Shown piece after piece: positions 38,590-59,409 of a DNA stretch of 64,000 bases. Both the position numbers and the translations under genes were made by a program. Every line of letters starts with the position of its first letter. Within the stretch, counting starts at the first letter, position 1. The stretch is from NCBI RefSeq assembly GCF_002196705.1, contig NZ_NADJ01000029.1, positions 1 through 64,000 on the forward strand, written 5' to 3'. The notes below the pieces were generated by a model, which was given only the letters and a program-made list of their open reading frames with translations, was not told where the DNA came from and ran no database searches. Source of the stretch: Desulfosporosinus sp. FKB. Its GTDB lineage: Bacteria; Bacillota; Desulfitobacteriia; Desulfitobacteriales; Desulfitobacteriaceae.

Positions 38590-38627
38590 AGCAGCAATTC
38601 TTAATCGAGCGGAAGTTTTGAATATAA

Positions 38628-38660
38628 GGAGCACTATTGAGATCAAGAGTGCTCCCTTCT
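38628..38660 (+). terminator. Terminator of ygeX
   Basis: GGAGCACT (38628-38635) pairs with AGTGCTCC (38648-38655), followed by CTTCTTT. Confidence 0.7.
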
Positions 38661-38713
38661 TTATGGGTTCGCTGCCTTTTGTTTTTCAAATTTTGCCGCA
38701 AATGGACTTCGAG

Positions 38714-38726
38714 TCTCGAAATGAGA
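38714..38726. promoter_or_regulatory. Candidate activator/operator site of the second regulator
   Basis: TCTCGAAATGAGA fits TCTC(A/G)-N3-TGAGA, the same motif as the sites at 40594 and 40676. It lies 13 bases before a TATAAT (38739-38744) and 54 bases before the regulator start, a position suited to self-regulation. Confidence 0.55.
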
Positions 38727-38779
38727 CTAAGAGTTGTATATAATGTAATCAGGTAGTGAATTATTATTGAGGTGCTAAG

Positions 38780-40543: not shown

Positions 40544-40593
40544 CTTTGTGGTGAAAATAACGGTGCATTTCCTGTATCAAAACTTGACGAATG

Positions 40594-40688
40594 TCTCAAA
40601 ATGAGATTGAAGGCTTCAATCCTGCTTGTAGCACTGGTCGAGAAATTTCTTGGGTTTAGTTCATTAAAAATGCAGTCTCAATTTGAGA
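40594..40688. promoter_or_regulatory. Paired activator sites upstream of ygeY
   Basis: TCTCAAAATGAGA (40594-40606) and TCTCAATTTGAGA (40676-40688) are perfect palindromes 82 bases apart and 86-180 bases ahead of the sigma-54 promoter. Confidence 0.78.
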
Positions 40689-40773
40689 TTGTAGTTAAAA
40701 AACTATGTTGTTGATTTGATTCAATTCAATCTGCTTAGAACCCTAAAATATTAAGAAACAAGGTATCTGGAAG

Positions 40774-40789
40774 TGGCATGAATCTTGCA
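40774..40789 (+). promoter_or_regulatory. Sigma-54 promoter of the ygeY operon
   Basis: TGGCATGAATCTTGCA has GG-N10-GC spacing. The 40544-40875 gap holds this promoter and the activator sites, with no gene. Confidence 0.88.
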
Positions 40790-40875
40790 TTAATCTATAA
40801 GGGAACGATCATAATATCTATGACGATCGAAAATCCACAATCAATAATCCAAACGTAGTGAAAGGGGAATTTATT

Positions 40876-42123: not shown

Positions 42124-42210
42124 GTTGCCTTAGAACGACTACAAAATGGACAAGGAATTCTAACACATTTACTGATCTTAAAGAATTAACTAGTAGGAGG
42201 AACCAATACA

Positions 42211-43215: not shown

Positions 43216-43217
43216 AC

Positions 43218-44168: not shown

Positions 44169-44218
44169 GAATTCAGTTTTTACATTGAATCAGATTGAGT
44201 AACAATAGTTCGTCAAAC

Positions 44219-44244
44219 AGAGTGCTTTCCTTGGAAAGCACTCT
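44219..44244 (+). terminator. Perfect 26-base palindrome after carbamate kinase
   Basis: AGAGTGCTTTCC and GGAAAGCACTCT (44219-44244) form a 12-bp stem with a 2-base loop, 51 bases after the stop. It lacks a T tract, so it may be a processing or stability hairpin rather than a full terminator. Confidence 0.5.
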
Positions 44245-44364
44245 GTCTCAAACTTTTGGAATCCTCTGAAGGTTTTCGATAAATGTTAGTTCAAGATTAG
44301 TAAACTCGCAAGGATGGGAGCCAATCCCACGAACATCTAAAATAAGCCTTAAGGAGATTTTAGA

Positions 44365-45759
44365 ATGGGTATTGTTTTAAATGGCGGGACAGTTGTAACG
44401 GCTGCCGACGTGTATCAAGCAGACGTCCGGATTGAAGGCGAGAGAATTGCAGCCCTTGGCTGCGAGATCAAGCAACCTGGTGATCAGGTGATAAATGTGG
44501 GCGGTTGCTTGATATTTCCGGGTGGTATTGACCCCCATACCCACTTTGACCTCCCGGCGGGAGATATTACGACTTCCGATGATTTTTATTCAGGGACTAA
44601 AGCTGCTTTATTGGGAGGCACTACGACAATCTTGGATTATGCCACTCAATTTAAAGGGGAAAGTCTCAAAACAGGTTTGGAAAATTGGCATAAAAAAGCC
44701 GACGGCAAATGTTTTGTTGATTATGGTTTTCATATGGCTATTACTGATTGGAACGATGCCATCGCTCAAGAAATGACAACAATGGTCCGCCAGGAAGGTG
44801 TACCTTCTTTTAAATTGTATATGGCTTATAAGAATGTTTTGCAAGTCGACGACGGTTCACTCTTGCAGGCCCTGCGTCAGGCCGGAAAATGCGGAGCACT
44901 CGTTTGTGTGCATTGCGAAAACGGAGATGTGGTTTATGATCTTGTGCAAAAGGCTTGTCTAGAAGGGAAAACTGCACCTCGCTATCATCCATTAACCCGA
45001 CCTCCCGAGGTAGAAGCTGAAGCAACGTCGCGGGTAATTACTCTCGCTCAATTGGCCGATGCGCCTCTTTATATTGTTCATCTTACCTGCAGTGGTGCCC
45101 TTGAGGCTGTAACAAAGGCCAAATTACAGGGTGAGGAAGTCTATGCGGAAACTTGCCCTCAGTATTTGTTGCTCGATGATAGTTGTTACTGTTCCGAAGG
45201 CTTTAATGGTGCGAAATACGTGATATCTCCGCCCTTGCGTCCTATTCAGAACCAAGCCGCCTTATGGTCGGCTCTGCAAACGGGAATTTTAGAGACGGTT
45301 GCCACCGACCATTGTGCGTTTAATTATAAAGGTCAAAAAGAACTGGGCCTTGAGGATTTTAGTAAGATTCCTAACGGAGCACCCGGTGTAGAAACCAGGA
45401 TGGGGTTACTTTACACTTATGGCGTAAAGTCGGGCAAATTAAACCTTAATGAATTTGTCGCTTTAACTTCTACAAATGCCGCAAAATTATTCGGGTTATT
45501 CCCCCGCAAAGGGACAATCGCACCTGGTAGTGATGCAGATCTGGTGGTATGGGACCCGAGTATTTCCTCTGGAATCTCAGTCGAAAGACTGCACCAGGAT
45601 GTTGACTACACCCCCTTTGAGGGCTTTAAACAGCAGGGAAAAGCGATTCGTATATTTTTGCGAGGCAGGCAGGTGAGTCAAGACGGCCAATTAACCCAAG
45701 AATTACCTGCAGGAAAGTATTTGTTCCGGAATCCATTTCTGAGGAGAAAGGATGGGTAG
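44365..45759 (+). CDS. hyuA: HyuA-type hydantoinase/dihydropyrimidinase, 464 aa
   Basis: Cyclic amidohydrolase. GGIDPHTHFDLPAGD gives the metal His pair, FKLYMAYKNV the carboxylated-lysine segment (K), CVHCENG and YIVHLTCSGALEAV the other metal His, and ATDHCAFNY the final Asp. The family opens hydantoin or dihydropyrimidine rings. In this cluster a ring-opened purine or imidazolone-derived hydantoin is the probable substrate; allantoin is another possibility. AAGGAG precedes the ATG. The next gene overlaps its stop by 8 bases, so they are coupled. Confidence 0.9.
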   Translation: MGIVLNGGTVVTAADVYQADVRIEGERIAALGCEIKQPGDQVINVGGCLIFPGGIDPHTHFDLPAGDITTSDDFYSGTKAALLGGTTTILDYATQFKGESLKTGLENWHKKADGKCFVDYGFHMAITDWNDAIAQEMTTMVRQEGVPSFKLYMAYKNVLQVDDGSLLQALRQAGKCGALVCVHCENGDVVYDLVQKACLEGKTAPRYHPLTRPPEVEAEATSRVITLAQLADAPLYIVHLTCSGALEAVTKAKLQGEEVYAETCPQYLLLDDSCYCSEGFNGAKYVISPPLRPIQNQAALWSALQTGILETVATDHCAFNYKGQKELGLEDFSKIPNGAPGVETRMGLLYTYGVKSGKLNLNEFVALTSTNAAKLFGLFPRKGTIAPGSDADLVVWDPSISSGISVERLHQDVDYTPFEGFKQQGKAIRIFLRGRQVSQDGQLTQELPAGKYLFRNPFLRRKDG

Positions 45760-48316
45760 AATGTTTAAGATTAATGTCAATGGAACAGAGTATTCTTGCC
45801 AGGATGATATGAACCTTATGGAATATTTAAGGGACGTATTACACATCACATCCTTGAAAAACGGCTGCGGTGAAGGAACATGCGGTGCCTGTACTGTACT
45901 TGTTGATGACAAGAAAGTGCGCGCTTGTACGCAAACATTGGCTAAAGCAGCAGGGAAAAAAGTCTTAACAGTAGATGGGTTGTCCGAACGGGAAAAGGAA
46001 GCCTATACCTGGGCCTTCGCCGAAGCAGGTGCTGTCCAGTGCGGATTCTGTATTCCCGGAATGGTCATAAGTGCCAAAGCTTTAATTGACAAGTCTCCCA
46101 ATCCGACCTCCAAAGAGATCAAAGAGGCAATCCGAGGCAATATTTGCCGCTGTACCGGATATGTCAAAATTGAACAAGGAATTATGTTAGCAGCTAAGGT
46201 ACTGCGCGGTGAACTTCAGCCTAATGCGGTAAATATCACCGGAGCTGGAGTGGGGACGAGCATTCAGCGTTTGGATGCTCGGGAAAAGGTTCTGGGAACC
46301 GGCGAATATGTGGATGATTTATTTATTAATGATATGCTTCATGCTGCAGTTTTGCGCACAACTTATCCCCGTGCCTTGGTTAAAGGGATCGATACCTCCG
46401 CAGCACGTGTTTATCCCGGTGTCGAGGCAGTTTTGACAGCAGAAGATATTCCTGGGGTTAATGAACACGGGCATATATTTCATGATTGGCCGACTCTGAT
46501 TCCTGTCGGGCAAGAAACCCGTTACGTTGGGGACGCTATTGCTTTGGTTGCAGCGCAGACAAAGAAGCAAGCCCGCGAGGCATTGGCTTTAATCAAGGTT
46601 GATTATGAAGAGCTTAAACCCGTTCTCAGCCCGACGGAGGCTTTAGCAGAGGAAGCTCCGAAAATTCATACTCAAGGAAATCTGTTAAGCACCACTAAAA
46701 TTAAGCGGGGTAATGTTGAGGAAGCGCTGGCAAAATCTGCTTATGTGGTAACTCAGCGTTATTCGACGCCGCCTACGGAACATGCTTATATGGAACCGGA
46801 AAGTGCTTTGGCGATCCCGCAGGACGATGGAGGAATTTTAGTCTATGTCGGAGACCAAAGCGTTTATGACGATCAACATGGAATAATGGGGATTTTGGGG
46901 CTTCCTGCGGAAAAAGTTCGGGTCATCAGTAAGCTTGTGGGCGGGGGCTTTGGGGGTAAAGAGGATTTAAGCGTTCAGCATCATGCGGCTCTTTTGGCTT
47001 ACATCACTCAAAAACCCGTAAAACTTACTCTTTCGCGTAAGGAGAGCATTTTAGTTCATCCAAAACGACATGCTATGGAATTAGAGGTTACAACCGGGTG
47101 TGATGCAGAGGGAAGACTGACAGCTTTGACAGCAAAGATCGTAGCTGATACAGGAGCTTATGCTTCCTTGGGGACCGCCGTTTTGCAGAGAGCCTGTACT
47201 CATGTGGCCGGCCCATATCAAATTGCCAATGTCGACATTACCGGACTTTGTGTCTATACCAATAATCCTCCTGCCGGAGCCTTCAGAGGCTTTGGAGTTC
47301 CGCAGGCGGCGTTTGCCTCGGAAACAAATCTTGATCTTTTGGCTGAAAAAGTTGGTGTTTCTCCTTGGGAAATTCGTTACCGCAATGCCTTGGAGCCCGG
47401 AATGATTAATCCGACAGGTCAGATTACCGATGAGGGAACGGCTGTTAAAGAAACACTCCTGGCGGTTCGTGAGGTGTACGAGTCCAATCCTTATGCAGGG
47501 ATTGCTACTGTCATGAAAAATACGGGTATTGGTGTCGGCTTGCCGGATACGGGTCGGGTAAAACTGCAAGTCCGAGACGGAAAAGTAGTGGTGCTCACCA
47601 GCGCCGCCTGTATCGGGCAGGGATTGGTCACTGTGGCGACCCAGATCGTGAACGAGGCTACCGGCCTGCCTCTGGAACGGATCACTTTCGGCGCCCCCGA
47701 TACCTTTCTGACTCCTGATTCGGGAACTACCACAGCCTCGCGTCAAACTTTGTTCACTGGAGAGGCTATTCGCCAGGCATCCTTGAAACTTCAGCATGAG
47801 TTATACAAATCGTCTCTGGAAGAGCTGGAGGGCATGGAGTTCTACGGAGAATATTTTGGAAAGACGGACCCCATCAATTCCGATAAACAAAATCCGGTCA
47901 GCCATGTTGCCTACAGCTATGCTACTCAAGTGGTGATTCTCAATGAGCAGGGCCTCGTGAAAAAGGTTATTGCGGCTCATGATGTGGGGCGGGCCATCAA
48001 TCCTAAGGCTGTAGAAGGGCAAATTGAAGGCGGTGTCGTCATGGGGCTGGGTTACGCGTTAAAAGAAGATTTCCCCTTGCAAAATGGCGTTCCAACCGCA
48101 AAATTCGGTACTTTAGGGTTATTGAGATCGACAGATGTCCCGGAAATTGAGACCATCATTATTGAAAAGAATACTTCTCCCTTGGCCTATGGAGCTAAAG
48201 GTATCGGAGAAATTTCTTCTATTCCGACGGCCCCTGCTGTTGCCTCAGCCTATCATAAGTTTGACAGCAAGGTGCGCTGCACGCTTCCACTGCGTGAGAC
48301 GCCCTATAAGAAATAA
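45752..48316 (+). CDS. xdhD: XdhD-type Fe-S/molybdenum hydroxylase fusion, 854 aa
   Basis: One chain combines the small and large subunits. Residues about 1-155 hold two [2Fe-2S] motifs (CGEGTCGACTVLVDD with a later Cys, then CGFCIPGM and CRCTGY), and residues from about 165 hold the Mo domain with GGGFGGKEDLS, FRGFGVPQAAF, IGQGLVTVATQ and the C-terminal GAKGIGEISS with the catalytic Glu. There is no FAD domain, so a separate flavoprotein (perhaps one of the FAD subunits here, or YgfK) accepts the electrons. The fusion matches XdhD of E. coli, a selenium-dependent type beside yqeB/yqeC. ATG 45752 overlaps the hyuA stop. Confidence 0.88.
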   Translation: MGRMFKINVNGTEYSCQDDMNLMEYLRDVLHITSLKNGCGEGTCGACTVLVDDKKVRACTQTLAKAAGKKVLTVDGLSEREKEAYTWAFAEAGAVQCGFCIPGMVISAKALIDKSPNPTSKEIKEAIRGNICRCTGYVKIEQGIMLAAKVLRGELQPNAVNITGAGVGTSIQRLDAREKVLGTGEYVDDLFINDMLHAAVLRTTYPRALVKGIDTSAARVYPGVEAVLTAEDIPGVNEHGHIFHDWPTLIPVGQETRYVGDAIALVAAQTKKQAREALALIKVDYEELKPVLSPTEALAEEAPKIHTQGNLLSTTKIKRGNVEEALAKSAYVVTQRYSTPPTEHAYMEPESALAIPQDDGGILVYVGDQSVYDDQHGIMGILGLPAEKVRVISKLVGGGFGGKEDLSVQHHAALLAYITQKPVKLTLSRKESILVHPKRHAMELEVTTGCDAEGRLTALTAKIVADTGAYASLGTAVLQRACTHVAGPYQIANVDITGLCVYTNNPPAGAFRGFGVPQAAFASETNLDLLAEKVGVSPWEIRYRNALEPGMINPTGQITDEGTAVKETLLAVREVYESNPYAGIATVMKNTGIGVGLPDTGRVKLQVRDGKVVVLTSAACIGQGLVTVATQIVNEATGLPLERITFGAPDTFLTPDSGTTTASRQTLFTGEAIRQASLKLQHELYKSSLEELEGMEFYGEYFGKTDPINSDKQNPVSHVAYSYATQVVILNEQGLVKKVIAAHDVGRAINPKAVEGQIEGGVVMGLGYALKEDFPLQNGVPTAKFGTLGLLRSTDVPEIETIIIEKNTSPLAYGAKGIGEISSIPTAPAVASAYHKFDSKVRCTLPLRETPYKK

Positions 48317-48508
48317 GATAAAGAGGCCGGCGCCGAGTGTCTATTCAAGCCGTTCCTGACTTCAAAGACGCCCGGCGTCCATGTTTAACGACAGATTACG
48401 TTTGCCCTTTGGTTAGAAAAAGGATAAAGTTTATAATTTTTGATAGAAACAATTAAAATGGTCTTGATATTGCCTCATAAAAAGGTTAATCTCAAACAGG
48501 TGCAGGTA

Positions 48509-49360
48509 ATGAATATGGTGGAATTTAACAATAATTCTCGAACAAAATGGACAAGAGGAAGTCTCTGGGAAATGACGAAGTACGCACAAGTCATTACCTT
48601 GATCGGGGCAGGCGGCAAAACTACTTGCCTCCAGGCCCTGACCCAAGAAATACAAGCTGCAGGATATCCGGTGATTGCCACAACCACGACGAAAGTGTAT
48701 CCGGATAACCAAGTACGGCCATGGCGTCATGCCAATCCTCCGCCCTTTGAGTCTCATGGTGTTTATTTTTGGTATGCTGGCGAAGAACAAGGCAGCGGAA
48801 AATGGCTGGGAAATTCTCCGTCCACAGTCGATAAAGCGGTCTTGGGGGAATGCCGGCGTTACTGGATTGTTGAAGGTGATGGGGCACGGGAGCGCCGTCT
48901 AAAGTGTTGGGCGTCCCATGAACCTCAAATTCCCCTGGGTTCAGATTGCGGAGTTTTGGTTTTGGATGGCAGACTGTGGGGGCAGGAGTTGAAAGACGAG
49001 GATATCCATCGACCAGAATATTGTCCTTATTTGGTCCATCAGCAGTTCACTGAGGAAAACGCCTGGCGATATTTTAAGAAGTCCCCGGTATTTTACCCTC
49101 AGTATCAACATCTAGCGTGGGTTATCTTCCTTAATATCCCTCAGCGGCCTGTTCACGGACATCCTATACAAGCGGAGTCTTCTGAGAGAGCGTATTTCTC
49201 TGATTTAAGGGCCCCCGAACCTGAAGTTCTGCTCGATGCTCTTTACCGCAAGGGGACGGAAGAGGTGCACTCTAAAGGATTGAAGGTAAAGCCAAGAAGC
49301 TTTAGACTGGCTGCAGGTGATGCTAAAGGGGGGAAGCTGCAATGGTTCGACTTGTGGTAA
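48509..49360 (+). CDS. yqeC: YqeC-type selenium-dependent hydroxylase accessory protein, 283 aa
   Basis: A P-loop protein: ITLIGAGGKTTCLQAL holds the Walker-A-like GAGGKTT, and IATTTTKVYPD follows. YqeC is a genomic marker of selenium-dependent molybdenum hydroxylases, found with yqeB and the SelD/Mo genes, and is thought to act in delivering labile selenium. The mid-region includes VLDGRLWGQ. I chose ATG 48509; TTG 48440 is in frame but gives an odd N-terminus, and the ribosome site is not strong for either. The end overlaps the MocA-like gene by 19 bases. Confidence 0.85.
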   Translation: MNMVEFNNNSRTKWTRGSLWEMTKYAQVITLIGAGGKTTCLQALTQEIQAAGYPVIATTTTKVYPDNQVRPWRHANPPPFESHGVYFWYAGEEQGSGKWLGNSPSTVDKAVLGECRRYWIVEGDGARERRLKCWASHEPQIPLGSDCGVLVLDGRLWGQELKDEDIHRPEYCPYLVHQQFTEENAWRYFKKSPVFYPQYQHLAWVIFLNIPQRPVHGHPIQAESSERAYFSDLRAPEPEVLLDALYRKGTEEVHSKGLKVKPRSFRLAAGDAKGGKLQWFDLW

Positions 49361-50022
49361 TGGCGGCTGGGCAAGCAACTCGCATGGGACGGGATAAACT
49401 GGCGTTACCTTACATAAATACTACTGTCCTCGGGCATGTCATCCATACCATTTTAGAAGGGATTATACTGCAGCAAAAGTTATCACAGAACTTATCTCGG
49501 GATTTATCCCGCGAATTATCTCAAGATTTGCCTAAAGGATTAATAGAAATTCATGTGGTTACGCGACGGCCTCCGGAAGACTATCTGACTAAGGATACGC
49601 TTCTTTCTTTTCAAGAAATGGGGGGGAAGTGGTTTCAAGTCCCCCAAGCAATTCCTCTTTCGGAAACTCTTCGGATTGGGCTAAGGGATTTACAGAAAAC
49701 TACTCTGATGGTGGGCTTTTTACCCGGGGATCAGGTTGGCATTACCTCTCAAGGACTGGCAGGATGTTTTGAACAGGCCCTGAGAGAGGCTCCGGACTTT
49801 TTAGTGCCGGTCTCTCAGACAGGAGTCGGTTCTCCGGTCTTTTTCCACCGCCGCTATGTTTCGGAACTCCGTGAGCTGCAAGGGGAAGAAGGGGGAAGGA
49901 AGGTTTTATACCGTTATCCTGAACGTTGGGCTCGGCAGCGAGTAAAAGAAACCTTCCTGCAGGATGTGGATACACCTGAAGAGTATCAGGCCTGGATGGA
50001 CTATATTCAAAAGAAAGATTAA
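49342..50022 (+). CDS. mocA: MocA/YgfJ-like molybdenum cofactor nucleotidyltransferase, 226 aa
   Basis: Rossmann-like nucleotidyltransferase: VMAAGQATRMGRDKLALPY is the CTP/GTP-binding start; VGFLPGDQVGITSQ holds the PxDQP-like motif (here PGDQ), and GVGSPVFFHRRYVSELREL the later region. It adds a nucleotide to the pterin cofactor for a hydroxylase. An in-frame insertion at about residues 48-65 reads LSQNLSRDLSRELSQDL, made of repeated Leu-Ser units and probably a slippage expansion. The position between yqeC and yqeB matches the cluster type. Confidence 0.82.
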   Translation: MVRLVVMAAGQATRMGRDKLALPYINTTVLGHVIHTILEGIILQQKLSQNLSRDLSRELSQDLPKGLIEIHVVTRRPPEDYLTKDTLLSFQEMGGKWFQVPQAIPLSETLRIGLRDLQKTTLMVGFLPGDQVGITSQGLAGCFEQALREAPDFLVPVSQTGVGSPVFFHRRYVSELRELQGEEGGRKVLYRYPERWARQRVKETFLQDVDTPEEYQAWMDYIQKKD

Positions 50023-50063
50023 AACTCCATTTAATTAAAGACTATGGTAAGGAGAATCGCGTT

Positions 50064-50912
50064 ATGGATAAGAAACTTAAGCTGAATGGACCCGTCGTCT
50101 TAGTTCGCGGAGCCGGAGAGCAAGCTACAGGGGTCGGATGGTCTTTGGCCAAAGCGGGATTCCGAGTCGTCATGACGGAAGTCCCCAAGCCCTTAATGGT
50201 TCGCTGGCCGGTATGTTTTGGCACGGCTGTTGTGAAGGGCAATTGGCAAGTTGAAGGAATTGCGGCGAATCTCGTTTCTGAAGCAGAGACGTGCGCTAGT
50301 GTTTGGGAAGATGGTGCTATTCCAATTTTGATCGATCCCGAGCTTCAGTGTTTAGCAAGATTGAAGCCGACTTTCTTAGTTGATGCCATTCTGGCGAAAC
50401 GGAACATAGGGACACGTCGGGATATGGCACTATTGACTATAGGCTTAGGTCCTGGCTTTACGGCTGGTGATGATGTGGACCTGGTCATAGAAACGAACCG
50501 AGGACATGACTTGGGCAGGTTAATCTACACAGGTCCGGCCCAGCCGAATACGGGAATTCCGGGCAATATTGCCGGATATACCAAAGAACGCGTCGTTTAT
50601 TCCCAACAGGCAGGAGTCTTTCGGGTCAAACGAAATATCGGCGAGAAGGTTCAGGCGGGAGAATGTTTGGGGATTATTGATGACGGACTTAGTTCCCAGG
50701 AGATAGCATCCTCTATTGACGGAGTTTTACGAGGACTACTGCTGGACGGAACACCGGTAGATGCTGCGGTCAAAGTAGGCGATATTGATCCTCGAGGGAA
50801 GAACGAGTATTGTTATACGATTTCTGAAAAGGCCCGTGCTATTGGTGCAGCAGTCCTGCTTGGAATTATAGAGAGTAATCGGTTGAATCCTCTTAGTCTG
50901 AAAGCGGAATAG
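50064..50912 (+). CDS. yqeB: YqeB-type selenium-dependent hydroxylase protein, 282 aa
   Basis: The EF2563/YqeB family protein found only with selenium-dependent molybdenum hydroxylases. It starts GPVVLVRGAGEQATGVGWSL (a Rossmann-like glycine loop), followed by MTEVPKPLMVRWPV and TIGLGPGFTAGDDVDLVIET. A C-terminal barrel-like part holds VFRVKRNIGEKVQAGECLG. It is thought to help make or load the labile selenium-cofactor; the biochemistry is not settled. AAGGAG lies upstream of the ATG. It ends the ygeY-hyuA-yqeC group; a purine riboswitch follows. Confidence 0.9.
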   Translation: MDKKLKLNGPVVLVRGAGEQATGVGWSLAKAGFRVVMTEVPKPLMVRWPVCFGTAVVKGNWQVEGIAANLVSEAETCASVWEDGAIPILIDPELQCLARLKPTFLVDAILAKRNIGTRRDMALLTIGLGPGFTAGDDVDLVIETNRGHDLGRLIYTGPAQPNTGIPGNIAGYTKERVVYSQQAGVFRVKRNIGEKVQAGECLGIIDDGLSSQEIASSIDGVLRGLLLDGTPVDAAVKVGDIDPRGKNEYCYTISEKARAIGAAVLLGIIESNRLNPLSLKAE

Positions 50913-51010
50913 CAATAATAATTTGGGCTTTTAATAAATTACAAGTAGGAATTTTACCGAGCCTGACGAATAGATAGTATAGTAAGAAAAAAATGAATAG
51001 TTCTGCTCAA

Positions 51011-51077
51011 ACTCATATATCCTTGATAATCGGATCAAGGGTGTCTACGAGGCAACCGTAATTGCTTCTCTATGAGC
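51011..51077 (+). promoter_or_regulatory. Purine riboswitch aptamer, guanine class (C74)
   Basis: P1 is CTCATA (51012-51017) with TATGAG (51071-51076). P2 is CCTTGAT (51021-51027) with ATCAAGG (51034-51040), with loop AATCGG carrying the GG that pairs with L3. J2/3 is GTGTCTAC (51041-51048), matching U47, C50 and U51 of the xpt aptamer. P3 is GAGGCAA with TTGCTTC, and its loop CCGTAA carries the CC. The base at the C74 position is C (51070), so guanine/hypoxanthine/xanthine, not adenine, is the predicted ligand. L2 is one base shorter than usual. It controls the genes from 51159. Confidence 0.88.
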
Positions 51078-51116
51078 CATGATGGTTTATGGAGAAACAA
51101 TTACGGTTGCTTTTTT
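51052..51116 (+). terminator. Riboswitch expression platform: terminator overlapping P3/P1
   Basis: The 5' arm (51052-51070) uses the 3' part of the aptamer (P3, L3 and J3/1), and its 3' arm is at 51092-51110; they pair over 19 positions with one mismatch, followed by TTTTTT. The aptamer and the terminator cannot form together, so ligand binding should prevent termination: an ON switch, as in adenine pbuE, instead of the usual guanine OFF switch. Confidence 0.85.
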
Positions 51117-51158
51117 GTGGACTATTTTTATCGGGCTCTAAGCAAGGGAGGACATTCC

Positions 51159-52001
51159 ATGAAGTATTATCAACCGCAAAGTGTCAATGAAGCCATAGAA
51201 ATAGCACATTCATCTCAAGGAATGTTTTTGGCCGGAGGAACGGATCTGGTACTTCAAATGCAGAAACGTAAGATCCAACCCAAGGCGTTGATTGACCTTG
51301 GCAGAATTCCGGAACTTCGAGATATCAAGGAAACGAAAGAGTATATAGAAATCGGCAGCATGGCAACCTTCTCTGATATGGGACAGAATCAATTAATTGC
51401 AGAGAAGGCAGCTTCTCTCTGGTTAGCTTGCCAGACGATGGGTTCGCCGCAGATTCGCAATCAGGCGACCATTGGCGGAAATCTCGGAAACTGTTCTCCA
51501 GCGGCCGATGGCTTGCCTCCTCTCTTAGCCTTAGGGGCTGAAGCCGTTTTAATTTCCGGCGAAGGAGAGAAGCAGATGCCTCTTGCTGACTTATTAGAGC
51601 AGACGCCGTTACTTTCTCCAGGTACTCTGATTGTCGGATTTAAAATACCTAAAATTTATCAGTTGAGTGGATTTGCCAAACTAGGCCGACGTGAAGCCTT
51701 AGCCATTGCTCGCTTAAGTGTTGCTGTGGCTCTGGAACTTGATGGTTCAAAGGCAGGAAAGGTCCGGGTCGCGTTAGGTGCCGTCGGCAGACGCGCTTTT
51801 CTTAGTGACTCGCTGGCTCAAGCTTTAAGCCAGCGGGAGTTTAATGAATCATGGCTGGAACTGGGGATTAGTCAAGTTCAAGGTGTTGTCCGCGCTGCTT
51901 TGGGAGACAGAGCATCAGCTCCTTATAAACGGGTTGCCGTGGCCGGTGTTTTTCGTGAAGCGATTGCTTCTTTGAGGCAGCAAGGAGGTTTGGATAAATG
52001 A
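51159..52001 (+). CDS. Molybdenum hydroxylase FAD subunit (NdhF-like), 280 aa
   Basis: FAD subunit of the riboswitch-controlled four-subunit hydroxylase. FLAGGTDLVLQMQ and IRNQATIGGNLGNCSPAAD are the two flavin-binding loops of the family, followed by the C-terminal domain of about 100 residues. It passes electrons from the Fe-S subunit to NAD(P) or another acceptor. I chose ATG 51159 because GGGAGG lies about 8 bases upstream; the in-frame start at 51072 lies inside the riboswitch. Its stop overlaps the Fe-S gene start (ATGA), so all four subunits are coupled. Confidence 0.88.
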   Translation: MKYYQPQSVNEAIEIAHSSQGMFLAGGTDLVLQMQKRKIQPKALIDLGRIPELRDIKETKEYIEIGSMATFSDMGQNQLIAEKAASLWLACQTMGSPQIRNQATIGGNLGNCSPAADGLPPLLALGAEAVLISGEGEKQMPLADLLEQTPLLSPGTLIVGFKIPKIYQLSGFAKLGRREALAIARLSVAVALELDGSKAGKVRVALGAVGRRAFLSDSLAQALSQREFNESWLELGISQVQGVVRAALGDRASAPYKRVAVAGVFREAIASLRQQGGLDK

Positions 52002-52465
52002 TAACGATTGAATTTAGCGTTAACGATAAAACCTATGTTTTAGAGGTCGATCCGAGAGAACGATTGCTGGATGTGCTGCGCAATCGCTTGGGCTTGATGG
52101 GGACAAAGGAAGGATGCGGAGAAGGAGAATGCGGAGCCTGCACCGTGATTTTAGACGGAAAAACCGTCAACTCCTGTCTCATTCTGGCAGGCCAAGTCCA
52201 TAACTCCGTGATTACGACGATTGAGGGTGTCGGGAATCGTCAGAGCCCCCATCCTGTTCAAAAGGCTTTTGTGGAAGTTGGCGCCGTACAATGTGGTTTT
52301 TGTACTCCGGGGATGGTTCTTTCTGCGAAAAATTTACTGGACAAGAATCCTCATCCCAGCGACGAGGAAATCGGAGTTGCTTTATCTGGAAACCTCTGCC
52401 GCTGTACGGGCTATGATAAGATTCTGCGCGCTGTCAAGCTGGCTGCTGAGGAGGGAAAACAATGA
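51998..52465 (+). CDS. Molybdenum hydroxylase 2Fe-2S subunit (NdhS-like), 155 aa
   Basis: Two [2Fe-2S] motifs: CGEGECGACTVILDG with a later Cys (NSCLILAG), then CGFCTPGM and CRCTGY. Typical length for the small subunit of xanthine/nicotinate dehydrogenases (about 155). GGAGG lies upstream, ahead of the ATGA overlap with the FAD gene, and the end overlaps the first Mo gene the same way. It relays electrons from Mo to FAD. Confidence 0.9.
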   Translation: MITIEFSVNDKTYVLEVDPRERLLDVLRNRLGLMGTKEGCGEGECGACTVILDGKTVNSCLILAGQVHNSVITTIEGVGNRQSPHPVQKAFVEVGAVQCGFCTPGMVLSAKNLLDKNPHPSDEEIGVALSGNLCRCTGYDKILRAVKLAAEEGKQ

Positions 52466-53727
52466 AAACTGATGTAGTAGGTTCTCGAGTCCTGCGCGAA
52501 GATTCTTGGGGAAAGGTTTTTGGTCAGACGAAGTTTCCGGCAGATGTCAACCTTCCCAACCAACTATACGGAGTTGTTGTACGCAGTCCTCATCCTCATG
52601 CTCGGATTCTGAGTATTAACAGCGAAGAAGCCATGAAGCTCGCAGGTGTTGCAGCTGTTCTGACGGCTAAAGATGTGCCCCATAATTCTCATGGTGTATT
52701 GTTCAGGGATCAGCCGGTTATCGCCGACTATGTCCGTATGGTAGGGGACCCGGTTGCCGTTGTGGGAGCAGAAACCATGGAGATCGCCCGTGAGGCAGCG
52801 GAGCGAATCAGGGTTGACTATGAAATTTTACCGCCTATCTTTGACCCTGAGGAGGCCATGAAGCCGGAGGTTCCGTCTCTCCACCCGGAGCTTCAGCCTA
52901 CTAATGTTCTATATCACCTGCCTATTCGCCGGGGATCGCTGGAGGAAGGCTGGGTCAAGTCAGATGTTGTCGTCGAACAAGTCTATAAAACACCGCATGT
53001 GGATCATGCTTTTCTCCAACCGGAGGCGGTTCTCGCTTACTTGGACGAACGGGGGCATATGGTGGTTCAGACTGCTACGCAATATGCCCACTATGATCGC
53101 GGAGAAATTGCTCATGCCCTAGGGTTTCGTTACAGCCAGGTGCAAGTAAAGACTTTGGCTGTCGGTGGTGCTTTCGGCGGACGGGAAGATATCTCTCTGC
53201 AAATTATTGCGGCCTTACTGGCTTTGAAGACTCAGAGAGCCGTCAAAATGGAGAATACTCGGGAAGAATCTTTTTATTCCCACAGCAAACGTCATCCGAT
53301 GACCATGTATTACAAGACAGGAGCTGCCAGGGATGGCAAGCTTGTAGCCCTGCAGGCTAAGATTATTGGTGATGCAGGGGCGTATGCTTCCTGGAGCGTC
53401 AATGTTTTGCGCAAATCTGCTGTTCATGCTACAGGGCCCTATGCAATACCCAATGTTGAGATAGACAGTTTTGCAGTATTTACGAATAATCCCTTTACCG
53501 GTGCGATGCGGGGCTTCGGTGCGGCTCAAACGGTACTGGCCTATGAGAGCCAGATGGATCTTTTAGCTAAGAAGTTGGGAATATCACCTTTAGAAATTCG
53601 ATTGCGCAATTGTTTCCAAGTGGGAAGCATCACGGCAACGGGACAAGAGCTGACAAGCAGTGTTCCTCTGGATCAATGTTTAGCCAAGATCGCCCCATAT
53701 TTTCGAAGTGAGGTGGAAACTCTATGA
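52462..53727 (+). CDS. Molybdenum subunit, N-terminal half (NdhL-like), 421 aa
   Basis: The first half of a molybdenum hydroxylase large subunit. Residues about 1-110 are the a/b hammerhead domain (SPHPHARILSINSEEAMKL), then the first Mo domain with VGGAFGGREDIS and MRGFGAAQTVLAYES. It stops after LDQCLAKIAPYF, just where the second Mo domain begins in single-chain enzymes. The next gene starts with ATGA overlap and supplies the rest. The same split occurs in nicotinate dehydrogenase of Eubacterium barkeri (NdhL 425 aa + NdhM 330 aa), so it is an established variant and not a mutation. The substrate here may be a purine. Confidence 0.88.
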   Translation: MKTDVVGSRVLREDSWGKVFGQTKFPADVNLPNQLYGVVVRSPHPHARILSINSEEAMKLAGVAAVLTAKDVPHNSHGVLFRDQPVIADYVRMVGDPVAVVGAETMEIAREAAERIRVDYEILPPIFDPEEAMKPEVPSLHPELQPTNVLYHLPIRRGSLEEGWVKSDVVVEQVYKTPHVDHAFLQPEAVLAYLDERGHMVVQTATQYAHYDRGEIAHALGFRYSQVQVKTLAVGGAFGGREDISLQIIAALLALKTQRAVKMENTREESFYSHSKRHPMTMYYKTGAARDGKLVALQAKIIGDAGAYASWSVNVLRKSAVHATGPYAIPNVEIDSFAVFTNNPFTGAMRGFGAAQTVLAYESQMDLLAKKLGISPLEIRLRNCFQVGSITATGQELTSSVPLDQCLAKIAPYFRSEVETL

Positions 53728-54725
53728 AAAAGCGGGGAATAGGTTTGGGCTGCGCCTGGTATGGGACCGGGTACGGCAATGGCTTTCCGGATGTTTCAAG
53801 TGCTTTTGTGGAAATTCATGACGATGGTTCGGCTACGGTCCTGACTGGGGCCGTGGATGTGGGGCAGGGCAGCAGTTCGATTTTTGCGCAAATTGCCGCT
53901 GAAGAACTAGGCCTGAGAGCAGAAGATATTTGTGTTAATACGGCAGATACAGATGTAACTCCCGATTCAGGGACTACTGCTGCAACCCGTCAAACGTATA
54001 ATACCGGCAATGCGGTCCTCAAAGCGGTTCGTCAGGCGAAGTCTCGCTTACTGACCTTTGCCGCCCGTGAATTTTCCTGTCCCACACCGGAGGGTATAGA
54101 GCTTAAGGCAGGATATATCGGAGTCAAGGGTGATCCGTCCCGACGGATGATTCTGGGGTATATGGTTTTTAAAGCCCGTTTAAATGGGGAGCGCTTTATC
54201 AGCGCGGAAAGTTCGACAGCCCGTTCGACTCCCGTGGATCTGACGAGCGGACAGGGGGCGCCTTACTGGCCCTATTCCTTTGGCTGTCAGGCGGCGGAAG
54301 TGGAAGTAGATACGGAAACAGGCAAGGTGAAAGTTCTTAAAGTTATCGCCGTTCATGATGTGGGAAAGGCCTTAAATCCTACCCAAGTCGAAGGGCAAAT
54401 TGCAGGCGGAGTGACGCAGGGTATCGGTTATGCTCTTCTGGAAGAACTTGAGTTACAAAAGGGAATGATTAAAAATCCGGCATTTTCCAGTTATCTGATT
54501 CCCACGGCACTGGATGTGCCTAAAATAGAAGCATACTTTGTCGAAGAAGCTGAAGAGAGCGGCCCTTATGGCGCCAAGGGCCTCGGTGAACCTGCGATGC
54601 TTCCGACGGTTGCTGCTGTTATCAATGCAATCGATGATGCTGTGGGGGTAAGGATCACTGCGTTACCAGCGACACCGGAAAAGATCCTGCAGGCACTAGC
54701 AGAAAAAAAGGAGGAATTGGGGTAA
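53724..54725 (+). CDS. Molybdenum subunit, C-terminal half (NdhM-like), 333 aa
   Basis: It continues the Mo subunit: GIGLGCAWYGTGYGNGF, then VDVGQGSSSIFAQIAAEELG (cofactor-contact loop), TPDSGTTAATRQTY, and at the end GPYGAKGLGEPAMLPTVAAV with the catalytic Glu. Together with the upstream half it equals 754 residues, close to a single-chain subunit. It starts with ATGA overlap, so equal synthesis of both parts is likely. The neighbours (an NCS2 permease, an amidohydrolase and adenine deaminase) suggest a purine substrate, for example xanthine, hypoxanthine or a related oxopurine. Confidence 0.88.
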   Translation: MKKRGIGLGCAWYGTGYGNGFPDVSSAFVEIHDDGSATVLTGAVDVGQGSSSIFAQIAAEELGLRAEDICVNTADTDVTPDSGTTAATRQTYNTGNAVLKAVRQAKSRLLTFAAREFSCPTPEGIELKAGYIGVKGDPSRRMILGYMVFKARLNGERFISAESSTARSTPVDLTSGQGAPYWPYSFGCQAAEVEVDTETGKVKVLKVIAVHDVGKALNPTQVEGQIAGGVTQGIGYALLEELELQKGMIKNPAFSSYLIPTALDVPKIEAYFVEEAEESGPYGAKGLGEPAMLPTVAAVINAIDDAVGVRITALPATPEKILQALAEKKEELG

Positions 54726-54809: not shown

Positions 54810-56171
54810 ATGTCAAGCGTGTCAAAGAATTCTACGCCTCCAGCCAATCATGGTTTTCTCGATAGCTATTTTCACCTATCCGAATTGGGAACCAATGTGC
54901 GGACCGAAATTCTAGCCGGAGTGACAACCTTTGTCACTATGGCCTATATCCTTTTCGTTAATCCGAATATTTTAAAAGACGCGGGAATGCCCATGAATGC
55001 AACCTTTGCTGCTACGGCGATTGCTGCTGCTGTCGCAACCTTAATCATGGGTGTGTATGCTAACTATCCAATCGCTATGGCTCCCGGGATGGGGCTTAAT
55101 GCATTTTTCACCTATTCAGTCGTCATCAACATGCATCTTCCCTGGCAAACTGCTCTCGGGGCGGTCTTTATTTCCGGATTAATTTTCTTTCTCTTAACCG
55201 TTACAAAAGTCCGGGAATGGATTATGGAAGGAGTTCCTACGGTTTTACGCCTTTCTATCGGCGTCGGTATTGGGCTGTTTATCGCGTTTATTGGGCTGCA
55301 AGATGGCGGTCTTGTCACAGCCAATAAGGATACTCTGGTTCAATTAGGCAATATGAAGTCTCCCAGTGTCCTTGTGACTGTATTCGGCTTAATTGTGACC
55401 GGATTTTTTATGGCTAAACGGATTAAAGGCGGTTTATTGTACGGAATTTTCCTGACTACAATTTTCAGTATGTTTATGGGCGTTAAGCAGTTTCCAACGG
55501 GCATATCGAGTTTTGTTGCCTTCTCCAATCCTTTCCATGCTGTAGCACCGATTATGGGTAAACTTGATCTTAAAGGTGTATTTAATTATGGTTTAATCTC
55601 AATTCTCTTTGCCTTTACGTTTGTCGATTTATTTGATAATATAGGGACCTTACTGGGGATTTCCCGCAAAGCTGGTCTTTTGGATGAAAACGGCAATCTG
55701 CCAAGAGTCGGCAGAGCTTTGATGTCCGATTCGATAGGTACAATGTTTGGTTCTATTATGGGAACTCCAACGGTAACGTCCTATATTGAAAGTACGGCAG
55801 GCGTAGCTGAGGGCGGCAAAAGTGGTTTAACTGCAGTAACCGTTGCAGTTCTTTTCGTTTTCGCCATTATCTTTGCTCCCCTTGTTGGTTTAATCCCAAG
55901 TCAAGCAACAGCACCTGTTCTTATTTTGGTAGGTGTCTTGATGATGGGCGAAGTAGTTCATATCAATTTTGAAGATTTTACAGATGCTTTCCCGGCCTTT
56001 ATCACCATCGTCATGATGCCTTTAACTTATTCTATTGCCCAAGGCTTGGCATTTGGGTTCATGTCTTATACCATTATTAAATTAATTACCGGAAGACACA
56101 AAGAAAACAATGCTGTAACCTATATCTTAACTATCTTATTTATCATTCACTTTATCCTTGGTGGGGGTTAA
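54810..56171 (+). CDS. NCS2-family hypoxanthine/guanine permease (AzgA/PbuG type), 453 aa
   Basis: About 12-14 membrane helices. LAGVTTFVTMAYILFVNPNI and GMGLNAFFTYSVV are diagnostic of the AzgA/PbuG branch, as is FVDLFDNIGTLLGISRKAGL (the substrate-site Asp) and GTPTVTSYIESTAGVAEGGKSG. The family imports hypoxanthine, guanine or adenine with protons. It complements the xanthine-type NCS2 at 23363. AGGGAGG lies about 8 bases before the ATG. It lies downstream of the guanine-class riboswitch, which fits purine-sensing control. Confidence 0.93.
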   Translation: MSSVSKNSTPPANHGFLDSYFHLSELGTNVRTEILAGVTTFVTMAYILFVNPNILKDAGMPMNATFAATAIAAAVATLIMGVYANYPIAMAPGMGLNAFFTYSVVINMHLPWQTALGAVFISGLIFFLLTVTKVREWIMEGVPTVLRLSIGVGIGLFIAFIGLQDGGLVTANKDTLVQLGNMKSPSVLVTVFGLIVTGFFMAKRIKGGLLYGIFLTTIFSMFMGVKQFPTGISSFVAFSNPFHAVAPIMGKLDLKGVFNYGLISILFAFTFVDLFDNIGTLLGISRKAGLLDENGNLPRVGRALMSDSIGTMFGSIMGTPTVTSYIESTAGVAEGGKSGLTAVTVAVLFVFAIIFAPLVGLIPSQATAPVLILVGVLMMGEVVHINFEDFTDAFPAFITIVMMPLTYSIAQGLAFGFMSYTIIKLITGRHKENNAVTYILTILFIIHFILGGG

Positions 56172-56284: not shown

Positions 56285-57616
56285 ATGCGTATACTTTTTA
56301 AAAACGCGACCATTGTGACCATGAATGCTCGGCGTGAGGTTATCAAGGGCGATCTGTTAGTGGATGGCTCAAGGATTGCAGCGGTTGGGGAGGTTAAGGA
56401 ACCTTCTGCAGATCAAGTGATTGATTTGGATGGTGACTTGCTCATTCCCGGTTTAATTCAAACTCATATCCATCTCTGCCAGACCTTGTTTCGGGGGCAG
56501 GCTGATGATTTGGAACTTTTGGACTGGCTTAAACTTAGAATTTGGCCCTTGGAAGGCGGACATGATCCGGAATCGATCTACGATTCCGCATTGCTGGGAA
56601 TTGGCGAACTCTTTTTAGGCGGAACGACAACCATAGTCGATATGGAAACAGTGCATCATACAGAACATGCTTTTGAAGCCATTCTTTCAAGCGGGTTAAG
56701 GGCTCTGGCCGGGAAAGTCATGATGGATGACCCTAGCGGGGATGTACCTCTTTCCTTGCAGGAAACAACAGAGGCTTCTCTACAAGAAAGTGTAGATTTA
56801 TTTGAGAAATTTAACGGACAAGGAAACGGACGTCTGGAAGTTGCCTTTACGCCTCGCTTTGTTGTTTCTTGTACCGATACCTTATTAAAAGAAGTTTCAC
56901 GGTTGGCGCGGGAAAAGAATGCTTTCGTGCATACCCATGCTTCTGAAAACCGGGGCGAAATTCAAGTTGTGGAAAGTACTCGGGGAATGCGCAATGTTGT
57001 GTATTTGGATAAGGTCGGCTTGACAGGCCCGAAACTTATTCTTGCCCATTGCATTTGGCTGGATGAGGCTGAAAAAGATATCCTGATTCGCAGCAAAACG
57101 CGAATTTCACATTGCCCGTCATCAAATCTGAAATTGGCCTCGGGGATAGCTGCCATTCCAGAACTCCTGGAGCGAGGTGCTGAAGTCTCTCTCAGTTCCG
57201 ATGGAGCCCCCTGCAGCAATAATCTGGATGGATTTCGAGAAATGCGCCACGCAGCCTTAATGCAAAAGCCCTTACATGGTCCAACTGCAATGCCGGCTCA
57301 AAAAGTATTTGAACTGGCAACTATTGCGGGAGCACGTGCTCTGGGACGCGAAGGAGATCTTGGGAGTCTGGAGGTCGGAAAAAAAGCTGATTTGGCAGTT
57401 GTCAGCCTTCAGGGACTGCATACCTGGCCCAACCAACATGTGGACGTATACTCTCAGTTAGTTTATCAGGCTTATCCCTCGGATGTTCGTCTCACGATGG
57501 TGGATGGACAAATCGTCATGAAAGACCGCCAGTTGTTGACAATTGACGTCCCTGAACTTAAGAAAAGCGCAACTCAAAGCTTGAATCGAGTCATGAAACA
57601 AGTAGGAATGATTTGA
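56285..57616 (+). CDS. Amidohydrolase of the SsnA/5'-deoxyadenosine-deaminase type, 443 aa
   Basis: Metal-dependent deaminase: THIHLCQTLFRGQADDLELL carries the HxH metal ligands, followed by FVHTHASENRGE, LAHCIWLDEAE and SLSSDGAPCSNNLD (final Asp). This is the layout of the MtaD/DadD/guanine-deaminase-like group that removes an amino group from purines or purine nucleosides. Substrate is not determined; guanine or an adenosine derivative are both possible in this context. I chose ATG 56285 because GAGGAAAAGG lies upstream; the in-frame GTG at 56243 precedes it. Adenine deaminase follows. Confidence 0.82.
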   Translation: MRILFKNATIVTMNARREVIKGDLLVDGSRIAAVGEVKEPSADQVIDLDGDLLIPGLIQTHIHLCQTLFRGQADDLELLDWLKLRIWPLEGGHDPESIYDSALLGIGELFLGGTTTIVDMETVHHTEHAFEAILSSGLRALAGKVMMDDPSGDVPLSLQETTEASLQESVDLFEKFNGQGNGRLEVAFTPRFVVSCTDTLLKEVSRLAREKNAFVHTHASENRGEIQVVESTRGMRNVVYLDKVGLTGPKLILAHCIWLDEAEKDILIRSKTRISHCPSSNLKLASGIAAIPELLERGAEVSLSSDGAPCSNNLDGFREMRHAALMQKPLHGPTAMPAQKVFELATIAGARALGREGDLGSLEVGKKADLAVVSLQGLHTWPNQHVDVYSQLVYQAYPSDVRLTMVDGQIVMKDRQLLTIDVPELKKSATQSLNRVMKQVGMI

Positions 57617-57681: not shown

Positions 57682-59409
57682 ATGATGTCCAGCTTTAGGC
57701 AAAGAATGGATGAGTCGAGAGGGTTAGCGCGCCTAGATCTTATCTTGAAAAGGGCGAGGCTTGTTAATGTTTTTTCAGGCGAAATCCATGAAACAGATAT
57801 CGGTATCCATGAGGGAATGTTTGTTGGCATTGGAACTTATGAGGATGCGGAAAGAGTCCTGGATTTAGGCGGTGATTACGTCGTTCCTGGTCTTATTGAT
57901 GGACATGTCCATATAGAAAGCTCACATCTTTGCCCTGAAGAATTTTGCTCTCTTCTTCTTACCCACGGTGTAACGACCGCTGTTGTTGACCCCCATGAAA
58001 TCGCCAATGTCTTAGGTGTTCAAGGAATTCGCTATATCTTGGATAGTATTGAAGATTTGCCCTTCAATGCTTTTGTAGCTCTTCCTTCCTGTGTTCCGGC
58101 AACAGAATTAGAAACATCCGGGGCCCGCCTTAGGGCGGCTGATCTCAAGGAGTTTTTAGATCATCCAAGAGTAATCGGACTTGGAGAAGTCATGGATTAT
58201 CCGGGAGTTTTGGCAGCCAAAGAAGAGATGGTGGCAAAATTGGAACTTCCCCTGAGGTTTAAAGATGGTCATGCACCCGGAATATCTCCCCAGGATCTTA
58301 ATGCCTATTATCGAGCAGGAATTCATACGGAACATGAGTGTTCTACCGTTGAAGAGGCCAGAGAACGGCTGCGCCGAGGGTTTTATGTGATGCTGAGAGA
58401 AGGGAGCGCCGCTAAAAATCTCCGCGATCTTTTGCCCGCTGTGACGCCGGAGAACTCAGGCCAATGCTTGTTAGTAACCGATGATCGGCATCCCAGGGAT
58501 TTAATTCAAGAAGGTTCAATTGATCATTTAGTCCGCTTGGCGATTCAAGAGGGAGTAAATCCTGTTCGGGTAATCCAGATGGCTACTATTAATACTGCTC
58601 GGGCCATAGGGCTTTCAAGGCTGGGAGCAGTGGCACCGGGATTTCAGGCTGATTTTGTGATTTTAAAAGACCTTAATCGGTTTGAGATCGAAGAAGTATA
58701 TTGGCGGGGAAAACGTCAAAGTCGCAGAGGTGAGCGCCCTCGCTTGGCAAAATCCAGCATCAAAGGCTTGACGGGGAGTGTTCATCTGGGCAATAGGTCT
58801 CTCGATCAACTTAATGTGAAAATTGATTCTAAAGGATTACATTCTGCAAGAGTACGTGTCATTGGAGTTCAGGGGCATTCGCTCATAACTTCAGAACTTG
58901 TGCGAGAATTGCCGATAATTAATCATTGTATCTCTGCCGACCCTGCTCAAAAGATAGCCAAAATCGCCGTTCTGGAGCGTCATCATAAGACGGGGAATGT
59001 GGGCATCGGCTTTGTAGAGGGGTTAGGCCTGACCAAAGGAGCTATCGCTTCCACAGTTGCCCATGATTCACATAATCTCGTCGTCGTGGGAATGAGTGAT
59101 GAAGAAATGAACCTGGCTATTGAAACCTGCGTTGAGATGGGGGGCGGCCTTTGTCTGATAGAGGGCGAGCAAGTGATTGGCAAACTTCCGCTGCCGATCG
59201 CCGGATTAATGTCTGATCAAGACGCCTATTCTATTGCTCGGACTTTAAGCGAAATTCATGAACAAGCCCATAGTTTAGGCGTTTTTGAAACCATTGATCC
59301 CTTTATGACCCTGGCTTTTTTGTCTCTTCCGGTAATACCTGAATTAAAACTGACAGATTTGGGATTGGTCGATGCAGCTAAATTTCAATTAACCAGCCTT
59401 TTGGTTTGA
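57682..59409 (+). CDS. ade: Adenine deaminase, 575 aa
   Basis: Converts adenine to hypoxanthine and ammonia, feeding the purine pathway. LVNVFSGEIHETDIGIHEG and DGHVHIESSHLCPEEFC hold the amidohydrolase metal site, and DDRHPRDLIQEGSIDH the later Asp. The C-terminal domain contains RHHKTGNVGIGFVEGLGLTK and VAHDSHNLVVVGMSDEEM, both characteristic of the AdeC family. Length is typical (about 575-590). AAGGAGG lies upstream, with an ATGATG start. It is the last gene of the riboswitch group; a weak hairpin follows at 59469. Confidence 0.94.
   Translation: MMSSFRQRMDESRGLARLDLILKRARLVNVFSGEIHETDIGIHEGMFVGIGTYEDAERVLDLGGDYVVPGLIDGHVHIESSHLCPEEFCSLLLTHGVTTAVVDPHEIANVLGVQGIRYILDSIEDLPFNAFVALPSCVPATELETSGARLRAADLKEFLDHPRVIGLGEVMDYPGVLAAKEEMVAKLELPLRFKDGHAPGISPQDLNAYYRAGIHTEHECSTVEEARERLRRGFYVMLREGSAAKNLRDLLPAVTPENSGQCLLVTDDRHPRDLIQEGSIDHLVRLAIQEGVNPVRVIQMATINTARAIGLSRLGAVAPGFQADFVILKDLNRFEIEEVYWRGKRQSRRGERPRLAKSSIKGLTGSVHLGNRSLDQLNVKIDSKGLHSARVRVIGVQGHSLITSELVRELPIINHCISADPAQKIAKIAVLERHHKTGNVGIGFVEGLGLTKGAIASTVAHDSHNLVVVGMSDEEMNLAIETCVEMGGGLCLIEGEQVIGKLPLPIAGLMSDQDAYSIARTLSEIHEQAHSLGVFETIDPFMTLAFLSLPVIPELKLTDLGLVDAAKFQLTSLLV

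Follow-up and report, generated by a model that had tools for sequence, protein, structure and literature searches.

A guanine-class riboswitch predicted to switch on purine uptake and breakdown genes in Desulfosporosinus sp. FKB

The operon and its leader

We analyzed a window of 64,000 nucleotides from Desulfosporosinus sp. FKB, in which a purine riboswitch precedes genes for purine uptake and breakdown (Table 1). An earlier note on this DNA had listed a hydroxylase, a purine permease and deaminases downstream; domain matches agree, and divide the molybdenum subunit between two ORFs. The product of the deaminase gene at 56285 falls short of the NCBIfam cut-off for guanine deaminase (TIGR02967, 230 of 375 bits) and passes that for 5'-deoxyadenosine deaminase (PRK07228, 671 of 522 bits). 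In PDB alignments its TPRFVVSC aligns with TPRFSLSC of human and TPRFAPSC of yeast guanine deaminase, while the TPRF..SC motif is absent from three other alignment rows: 8-oxoguanine deaminase, MTA/SAH deaminase (APHAPYTV at this site) and one unassigned amidohydrolase. We take the R-F pair of the motif to bind guanine. The gene probably encodes a guanine deaminase, judging by these alignments, and guanine would then be both signal and substrate.

Table 1. Features of the switch and the operon (positions in the window)
Feature	Position	Strand	Basis
Guanine-class purine aptamer (P1, P2, P3, three-way junction)	51012..51076	+	RF00167 score, fold, orthologue covariation
Aptamer P1	51012-51017/51071-51076	+	cmscan alignment
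Aptamer P2	51021-51027/51034-51040	+	cmscan alignment
Aptamer J2/3, GUGUCUAC, 8 nt	51041-51048	+	cmscan alignment
Aptamer P3	51049-51055/51062-51068	+	cmscan alignment
Aptamer J3/1, UC	51069-51070	+	cmscan alignment
Predicted intrinsic terminator hairpin; 5' half is aptamer P3-L3-P3'-J3/1-P1'	51049..51113	+	fold energy, inverted repeat, covariation
Terminator U tract; first three U also pair with the stem base	51111..51116	+	sequence, fold
Shine-Dalgarno-like AGGGAGGA of the first gene	51145..51152	+	sequence
FAD-binding subunit of xanthine-dehydrogenase-type hydroxylase (first gene, ATG at 51159)	51159..52001	+	PF00941, PF03450
[2Fe-2S] subunit	51998..52465	+	PF01799, PF00111
Molybdenum subunit, N-terminal half, separate ORF	52462..53727	+	PF01315, PF02738
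Molybdenum subunit, C-terminal half, separate ORF	53724..54725	+	PF20256
Purine permease, NCS2 type	54810..56171	+	PF00860; no NCBIfam match
Amidohydrolase deaminase, probably guanine deaminase	56285..57616	+	PF01979; TPRF..SC motif
Adenine deaminase	57682..59409	+	TIGR01178, 619 bits (cut-off 472.5)

A consensus scan yielded no plus-strand promoter and a single minus-strand match, at chance level. By eye, an A/T-rich -10-like stretch lies 12-18 nt 5' of P1 in many orthologues. Upstream, a second purine/selenium cluster occupies 37366-50912 of the window. It holds diaminopropionate ammonia-lyase, a PrdR-like regulator, YgeY, a carbamoyltransferase, carbamate kinase, dihydropyrimidinase, a selenium-dependent xanthine dehydrogenase, YqeC, a YgfJ-like protein and YqeB; the PrdR, carbamoyltransferase and YgfJ assignments are below cut-off.

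The aptamer

A cmscan of the whole window places a match to the Rfam Purine family (RF00167) at 50993-51092 (+), scoring 63.1 bits (E 1.3e-8) against a gathering cut-off of 37 bits. This covariance-model search, proposed in the earlier note, confirms at the sequence level that the guanine-class aptamer is real. In xpt numbering, the aptamer reads U22, U47, G48, U49, C50, U51, A52, C53, U73 and C74. The pocket letters U22, U47, U51 and C74 are of guanine type and the junctions have no insertions, as in guanine-I aptamers; adenine riboswitches have U74 in place of C74.

The alignment bears out the xpt-type fold with P1, P2, P3, J2/3 and C74 that had been proposed from the letters alone, and with it two departures from the usual form: U73 in place of A73, and an L2 of 6 nt, 1 nt below the Rfam consensus. 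L3 (CCGUAA), which the note overlooked, is also 1 nt below the consensus. An aptamer with U73 and shortened loops could be a weaker one. Folded alone, the aptamer has an energy of -22.4 kcal/mol (z -3.9).

A terminator built from the aptamer

The letters after the aptamer repeat part of it in inverted form. Arms of 29 nt at 51052-51080 and 51082-51110, separated by a 1-base spacer and 86% complementary, are followed by six T, and the repeat covers most of P3 together with L3, P3', J3/1 and the 3' strand of P1. Folded alone, 51049-51116 forms a single long hairpin of -42.1 kcal/mol, compared with -11.6 +/- 2.8 in shuffles (n=200; z -11). The best fold of the full 107 nt consists of P2 and this hairpin (-54.9 kcal/mol). 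The first reading of the locus had given the terminator's 5' arm as P3 and J3/1, which is right and understated, the strands of L3, P3' and P1' being used as well. Since the 5' half of the terminator is the aptamer's own P3, L3, J3/1 and P1', ligand binding and termination should be mutually exclusive, as had been proposed.

The usual guanine-I arrangement is an OFF switch, in which the terminator is compatible with the bound aptamer and the aptamer would stabilize it, as in xpt. That reading is scarcely credible here: the only strong hairpin before a U tract consumes P3, J3/1 and P1' and cannot coexist with P1 and P3. The folds and covariation instead give the arrangement of pbuE-type ON switches, where the terminator forms by invasion of P1, J3/1 and P3. 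A weaker second hairpin (-13.6), which begins 32 nt beyond the first base of P3, goes with a T run further on. A simple terminator scan of 50800-51250 listed no terminators; it is uninformative either way, because the hairpin at 51049-51113 was itself among those missed.

When the RNA is folded at growing length in 3-nt steps, no structure is better than the aptamer until 51085. From there the cost of keeping P1 and P3 rises from 0.5 at 51088 to 5.9 at 51100, 16.8 at 51106 and 25.8 kcal/mol at 51112, and the switch must therefore be kinetic. The two folds, their exclusion, their conservation and the gene context, all computed, probably reflect an ON switch that acts on transcription through an aptamer of guanine-I type, its ligand, kinetic gate and direction of control being our inference. 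P1, P2 and P3 would fold first during RNA synthesis. Bound guanine (or hypoxanthine) would lock J2/3 and P1, RNA polymerase would pass the U tract, and the purine uptake and breakdown operon would be expressed. Without ligand, RNA made after about 51085 would invade P1, then J3/1, then P3, and the terminator would be completed at 51113-51116.

The switch in the same genome and family

The genome has three purine matches, scoring 63.1 (the window element), 84.7 and 80.9 bits, and only the window element has a terminator that consumes its aptamer. The other two, L001, before what we take to be a purE-like gene, and L002, before a gene of a group whose representative has some likeness to FAD-binding Mo-hydroxylase subunits but reaches none of the cut-offs, have terminators that start well 3' of the aptamer. 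Together with L002, 20 relatives carry a canonical guanine aptamer before a different FAD-binding Mo-hydroxylase-type subunit, the terminator being far downstream in most (exception L104). With the terminator so placed in most of them, a single cell may have one FAD-binding Mo-hydroxylase-type gene that guanine represses and another that it induces. Sequences after several canonical matches of the family resemble the PRPP aptamer consensus; cmscan of twelve loci gave no PRPP aptamer at the gathering cut-off.

Across 45 genomes of the family we found 115 purine-riboswitch matches, and in 30 of them the 5' arm of the terminator starts in P3. The script called 29 of these (the arm begins with base one of P3 in 28 and at +3 in L062); L071, whose interrupted U tract the script missed, was called by eye. 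The strongest hairpin begins inside P3' or J3/1 in L039, L040, L064, L066 and L104, and in P1' in L086.

All 30 ON-wired elements precede this operon or its remnant. The first gene is the FAD gene in 22 of the 30, a remnant of the molybdenum subunit in L056 and L057, the permease in L034 and the deaminase in L038, L041, L042 and L068; in L063 the start of the FAD gene is visible before the contig ends (last 136 nt read). The most constant downstream gene is the deaminase, found at 28/30 loci including the window; in L036 and L063 the sequence stops short of its expected place. At five of the 30 loci the stretch examined, which covered 2.7 and 2.1 kb after the element in L034 and L041, showed no hydroxylase gene, and the switch stands directly before the permease or deaminase. 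The ON-type control predicted by the earlier note is supported as a prediction; its target, a molybdenum hydroxylase, is too narrow, because no hydroxylase gene appears in the stretch examined at these five loci and two more have a remnant only.

Searched with an alignment of the FAD subunit, named genomes yielded 26 relatives, 19 of them at an identity of at least 52%. These 19 belong to Desulfosporosinus species, including Desulfosporosinus acididurans (L116), Paradesulfitobacterium ferrireducens, Acididesulfobacillus acetoxydans, Peptococcaceae bacterium CEB3 and other Bacillota, and all five that were scanned directly carry the element; the sequences of L116 and L128 were also inspected. 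The other seven, at no more than 34% identity, had no purine match in the six scanned (L140 left out). A plasmid search with the element gave zero matches.

Covariation in orthologues

We collected 32 elements, the 30 family loci with L129 and L131, and aligned 28 distinct ones after dropping L068, which has a damaged J2/3, and the duplicates L053, L058 and L059. For the aptamer structure, paired cells make up 97.9% overall and 100% in P3, and two-sided changes occur at 5 of the 7 P3/P3' pairs. In the terminator fold, with 3' arms chosen for best complementarity, 91.5% of cells pair: 98.8% in the lower stem, where the P3 5' strand meets the terminator arm and 5 of 9 pairs show two-sided changes, and only 84.0% in the upper stem. 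Controls with a slid register drop to 29-51%. Independent covariation events are few, because most two-sided changes split the Desulfosporosinus clade from the rest.

We also exchanged arms between loci, again with 3' arms chosen for best complementarity. Arms of the same locus form 8.5 of 9 pairs, exchanged arms 7.2 of 9, and none of 10,000 shuffles did as well; the test used 13 distinct arm pairs. Most of the drop is due to Desulfosporosinus 5' arms combined with 3' arms of other origin (4.5/9), whereas 5' arms from outside the genus still fit the U-rich Desulfosporosinus 3' arms (7.1/9), so the exchange signal is one-sided. Orthologue covariation supports both of the mutually exclusive folds.

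The same alignment speaks to the state of the aptamer. Were the aptamer decayed, the hairpin would be a constitutive attenuator only. The short L2 and L3 fit such a history, as do the Rfam score, lower than those of the genome's other purine matches, and the damaged relatives—L044, with a decayed upstream copy, and L068. However, the pocket letters are invariant in 28/28 aligned orthologues, L068 being left out, and P3 pairs throughout, and we regard decay as very unlikely. The L044 copy (1661-1764) lies about 250 nt 5' of an intact element as a tandem; its junction letters are lost, its terminator is kept, and it scores 63.4 bits with the model R1 described below.

The unusual letters of the window element, G48 and U73, could instead mark the same ON switch tuned not to guanine but to another oxidised purine (xanthine, uric acid). 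Hypoxanthine and xanthine are substrates of hydroxylases of the operon's type, as is established for the family, and a change of ligand to xanthine is known in variant guanine aptamers (PMC9295807). In that source, however, the xanthine-II change consists of U51G with insertions in J2/3 and J3/1, while the window element keeps U51 and has no insertions. Moreover, U48 is present in 26/30 ON-wired elements of the family and A73 in 5/30, so neither G48 nor U73 goes with the operon as such; a xanthine or uric acid switch is accordingly improbable, though less so than decay. U73 occurs in 25/30 ON-wired elements and in 0/85 of the others. We rejected U73 as a specificity change: its alignment column, 62, pairs with column 88 in 24/28 orthologues, and ON elements of other families often have G73. 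More likely, U73 follows from the pairing of the terminator.

Other families of the phylum

For a wider search we used R1, a covariance model built on the terminator fold; because it contains the terminator, the phylum sample is biased towards ON. Among 82 genomes of the class, families f1 and f2 contain strong matches; f3 and f4, represented by 34 genomes, contain none. In G045, from another family of the same order, an R1 match stands directly before a relative of the window deaminase (77% identity), arm complementarity being judged by eye. Among 398 genomes sampled from the phylum, 93 had a match at 1e-4 or better, many of them ordinary guanine aptamers.

We examined all listed matches from other orders with an E-value of 4.0e-6 or lower (n=68). 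With the 5' arm required to start in P3, 31 are ON, 7 weak and 30 not, a count that is too low for elements whose 5' arm is P3'-J3/1-P1'. A wider criterion, by which the terminator pairs back into the aptamer, makes 42 of the 68 ON; it drops L208 and L244 and accepts the doubtful L188, L204, L215, L216 and L226. The 42 include 32 from family f16. C74 is present in 40/42 and G73 in 24/42, and J3/1 is GC in 24 and AC in 15.

Forty of the 42 stand before Mo-hydroxylase, deaminase or purine-transport genes. To assign first genes, we compared the first ORF preceded by a ribosome-binding-like site with the window proteins and one BMP protein by BLASTP and took the best match. A Mo-hydroxylase subunit comes first in 22/42 ON elements and in 1/26 others (Fisher p 1.9e-5, kinship ignored), the sole case among the latter being L208, which is ON when the P3 arm is the criterion. 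The remaining ON elements are followed by BMP-type transporters (8), permeases (6), window-like deaminases (3), an adenine deaminase (1) and others (2). Against a clean split, non-ON elements also precede permeases (12/26) and BMP transporters (4/26). The ON logic thus appears to recur in other families of the phylum and not to be private to the window locus.

A short L2 was considered as a general enabler of strand exchange and rejected, as ON elements of other families are not uniformly short. The distance from A21 to G46, which depends on P2 as well as L2, is 23 nt in 29/30 ON-wired elements of the own family and 24 nt in 77/85 others; in other families it is 23 nt in 22/42 ON elements (f16 20/32, f25 2/2, elsewhere 0/8) and 8/26 others. 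With A73 kept in 5/30 ON-wired elements of the family, U73 is not a general mark of ON wiring, nor, on these counts, is a short L2.

Several f16 loci (L178-L180, L182, L183, L185, L187, L192, L193, L203, L205) have first ORFs of 420-430 aa behind their own ON switches, 55-59% identical; in the window the molybdenum subunit (52462-54725) is split into two overlapping ORFs. As ORFs of like length follow ON switches there too, switch and split hydroxylase may travel together. In L177 (G438), two successive U-tract hairpins follow one aptamer, on J3/1-P1' and on P3, a possible double terminator.

Relation to known switches

The window element shares with guanine-I riboswitches (B. subtilis xpt type, RF00167) the three-way junction, U22, U47, U51 and C74, the length of J2/3 and the CCG and GG loop letters. 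It differs in that its terminator consumes the aptamer, whereas the guanine-I terminator forms with the aptamer bound, and in U73, an L2 and L3 each 1 nt short, and a catabolic operon. The adenine riboswitch of B. subtilis pbuE, an efflux gene, shares the ON architecture, the strand exchange through P1, J3/1 and P3, and one G in J2/3, presumably at position 48 as in the window element. It has U74 (adenine) where the window element has C74 (guanine), and the window switch precedes purine breakdown genes rather than an efflux gene. Strand exchange in pbuE is gated by bound ligand, and its J2/3 has G where xpt has U (PMC7707468). According to the same paper, chimeras that joined the xpt guanine aptamer to the strand-invading pbuE platform worked in E. 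coli only after changes to two regions, one of which weakened the L2-L3 contact.

Guanine riboswitches commonly reduce expression, and guanine-I is OFF in Paenibacillus; ON control is predicted for guanine-II, xanthine-II and one guanosine-type variant, with candidates from Paenibacillus, Propionispira and Clostridium (PMC9295807). The string 'desulf' is absent from the text of that paper. These guanine-aptamer relatives resemble the window element in their predicted ON control, and xanthine-II precedes xanthine dehydrogenase and other purine-degradation genes, comparable to the window operon; both classes carry J2/3 and J3/1 insertions, xanthine-II also U51G, all absent from the window element (PMC9295807). 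The tandem guanine-PRPP riboswitch, whose gates are described in PMC5912903, likewise has a guanine aptamer, but its guanine input is OFF, and no PRPP-like aptamer follows the window element. Xanthine-I is OFF (PMC7373994), and among the three riboswitch mentions of PMC3519856 those in the accessible text concern glycine. Titles and abstract openings among the matches listed describe no guanine-I ON switch before purine-catabolic genes, which is weak evidence of absence, subscription literature being thinly covered.

ON purine switches are already known, and the window element is therefore not a new class; it is a variant, a guanine-I core wired ON, which is conserved together with its catabolic operon and has counterparts in other families. 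If nature has an ON version whose guanine core is unchanged, this would place the direction of control in the expression platform, and would be a natural solution to the design problem of the xpt-aptamer/pbuE-platform chimeras. Its wiring offers a physiological reason: breakdown induced by its substrate. Matches to RF00167 should then not be annotated as OFF by default. On balance we lean towards a guanine-activated regulon for anaerobic purine breakdown, in which guanine-I ON switches with self-consuming terminators act on hydroxylases, guanine deaminase and purine transporters in several families of Bacillota, overlooked so far since aptamers of this class are assumed to be OFF. If so, with guanine OFF switches for purine synthesis in the same genomes, one ligand would set synthesis and breakdown in opposite directions by RNA alone.

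Further switches in related genomes

A purine aptamer with G73 and C74 and no long U tract lies at L043 8950-9101 (-) on contig 4 of G041. By its sequence features, the 554-aa ORF downstream resembles a chemotaxis receptor. The Shine-Dalgarno sequence GGAGGTTGC is complementary to the P3 5' strand GCAACC, and for this reason L043 may switch on the translation of a chemoreceptor. In a sister genus, the aptamers of L064 and L066 are of the adenine class (U74); each has an ON-like terminator and is followed by an adenine deaminase relative. L039, L040 and L046 carry U51G xanthine-II-like aptamers before an xdhA-type gene, with an ON-like terminator in L039 and L040. They come from the same genus as carriers of the guanine ON switch; the xanthine-II candidates of PMC9295807 are from Paenibacillus, Propionispira and Clostridium. 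About 6.8 kb 3' of its xanthine-II-like aptamer, L039 also has an Rfam molybdenum/tungsten cofactor riboswitch (8897-9050, 56.7 bits).
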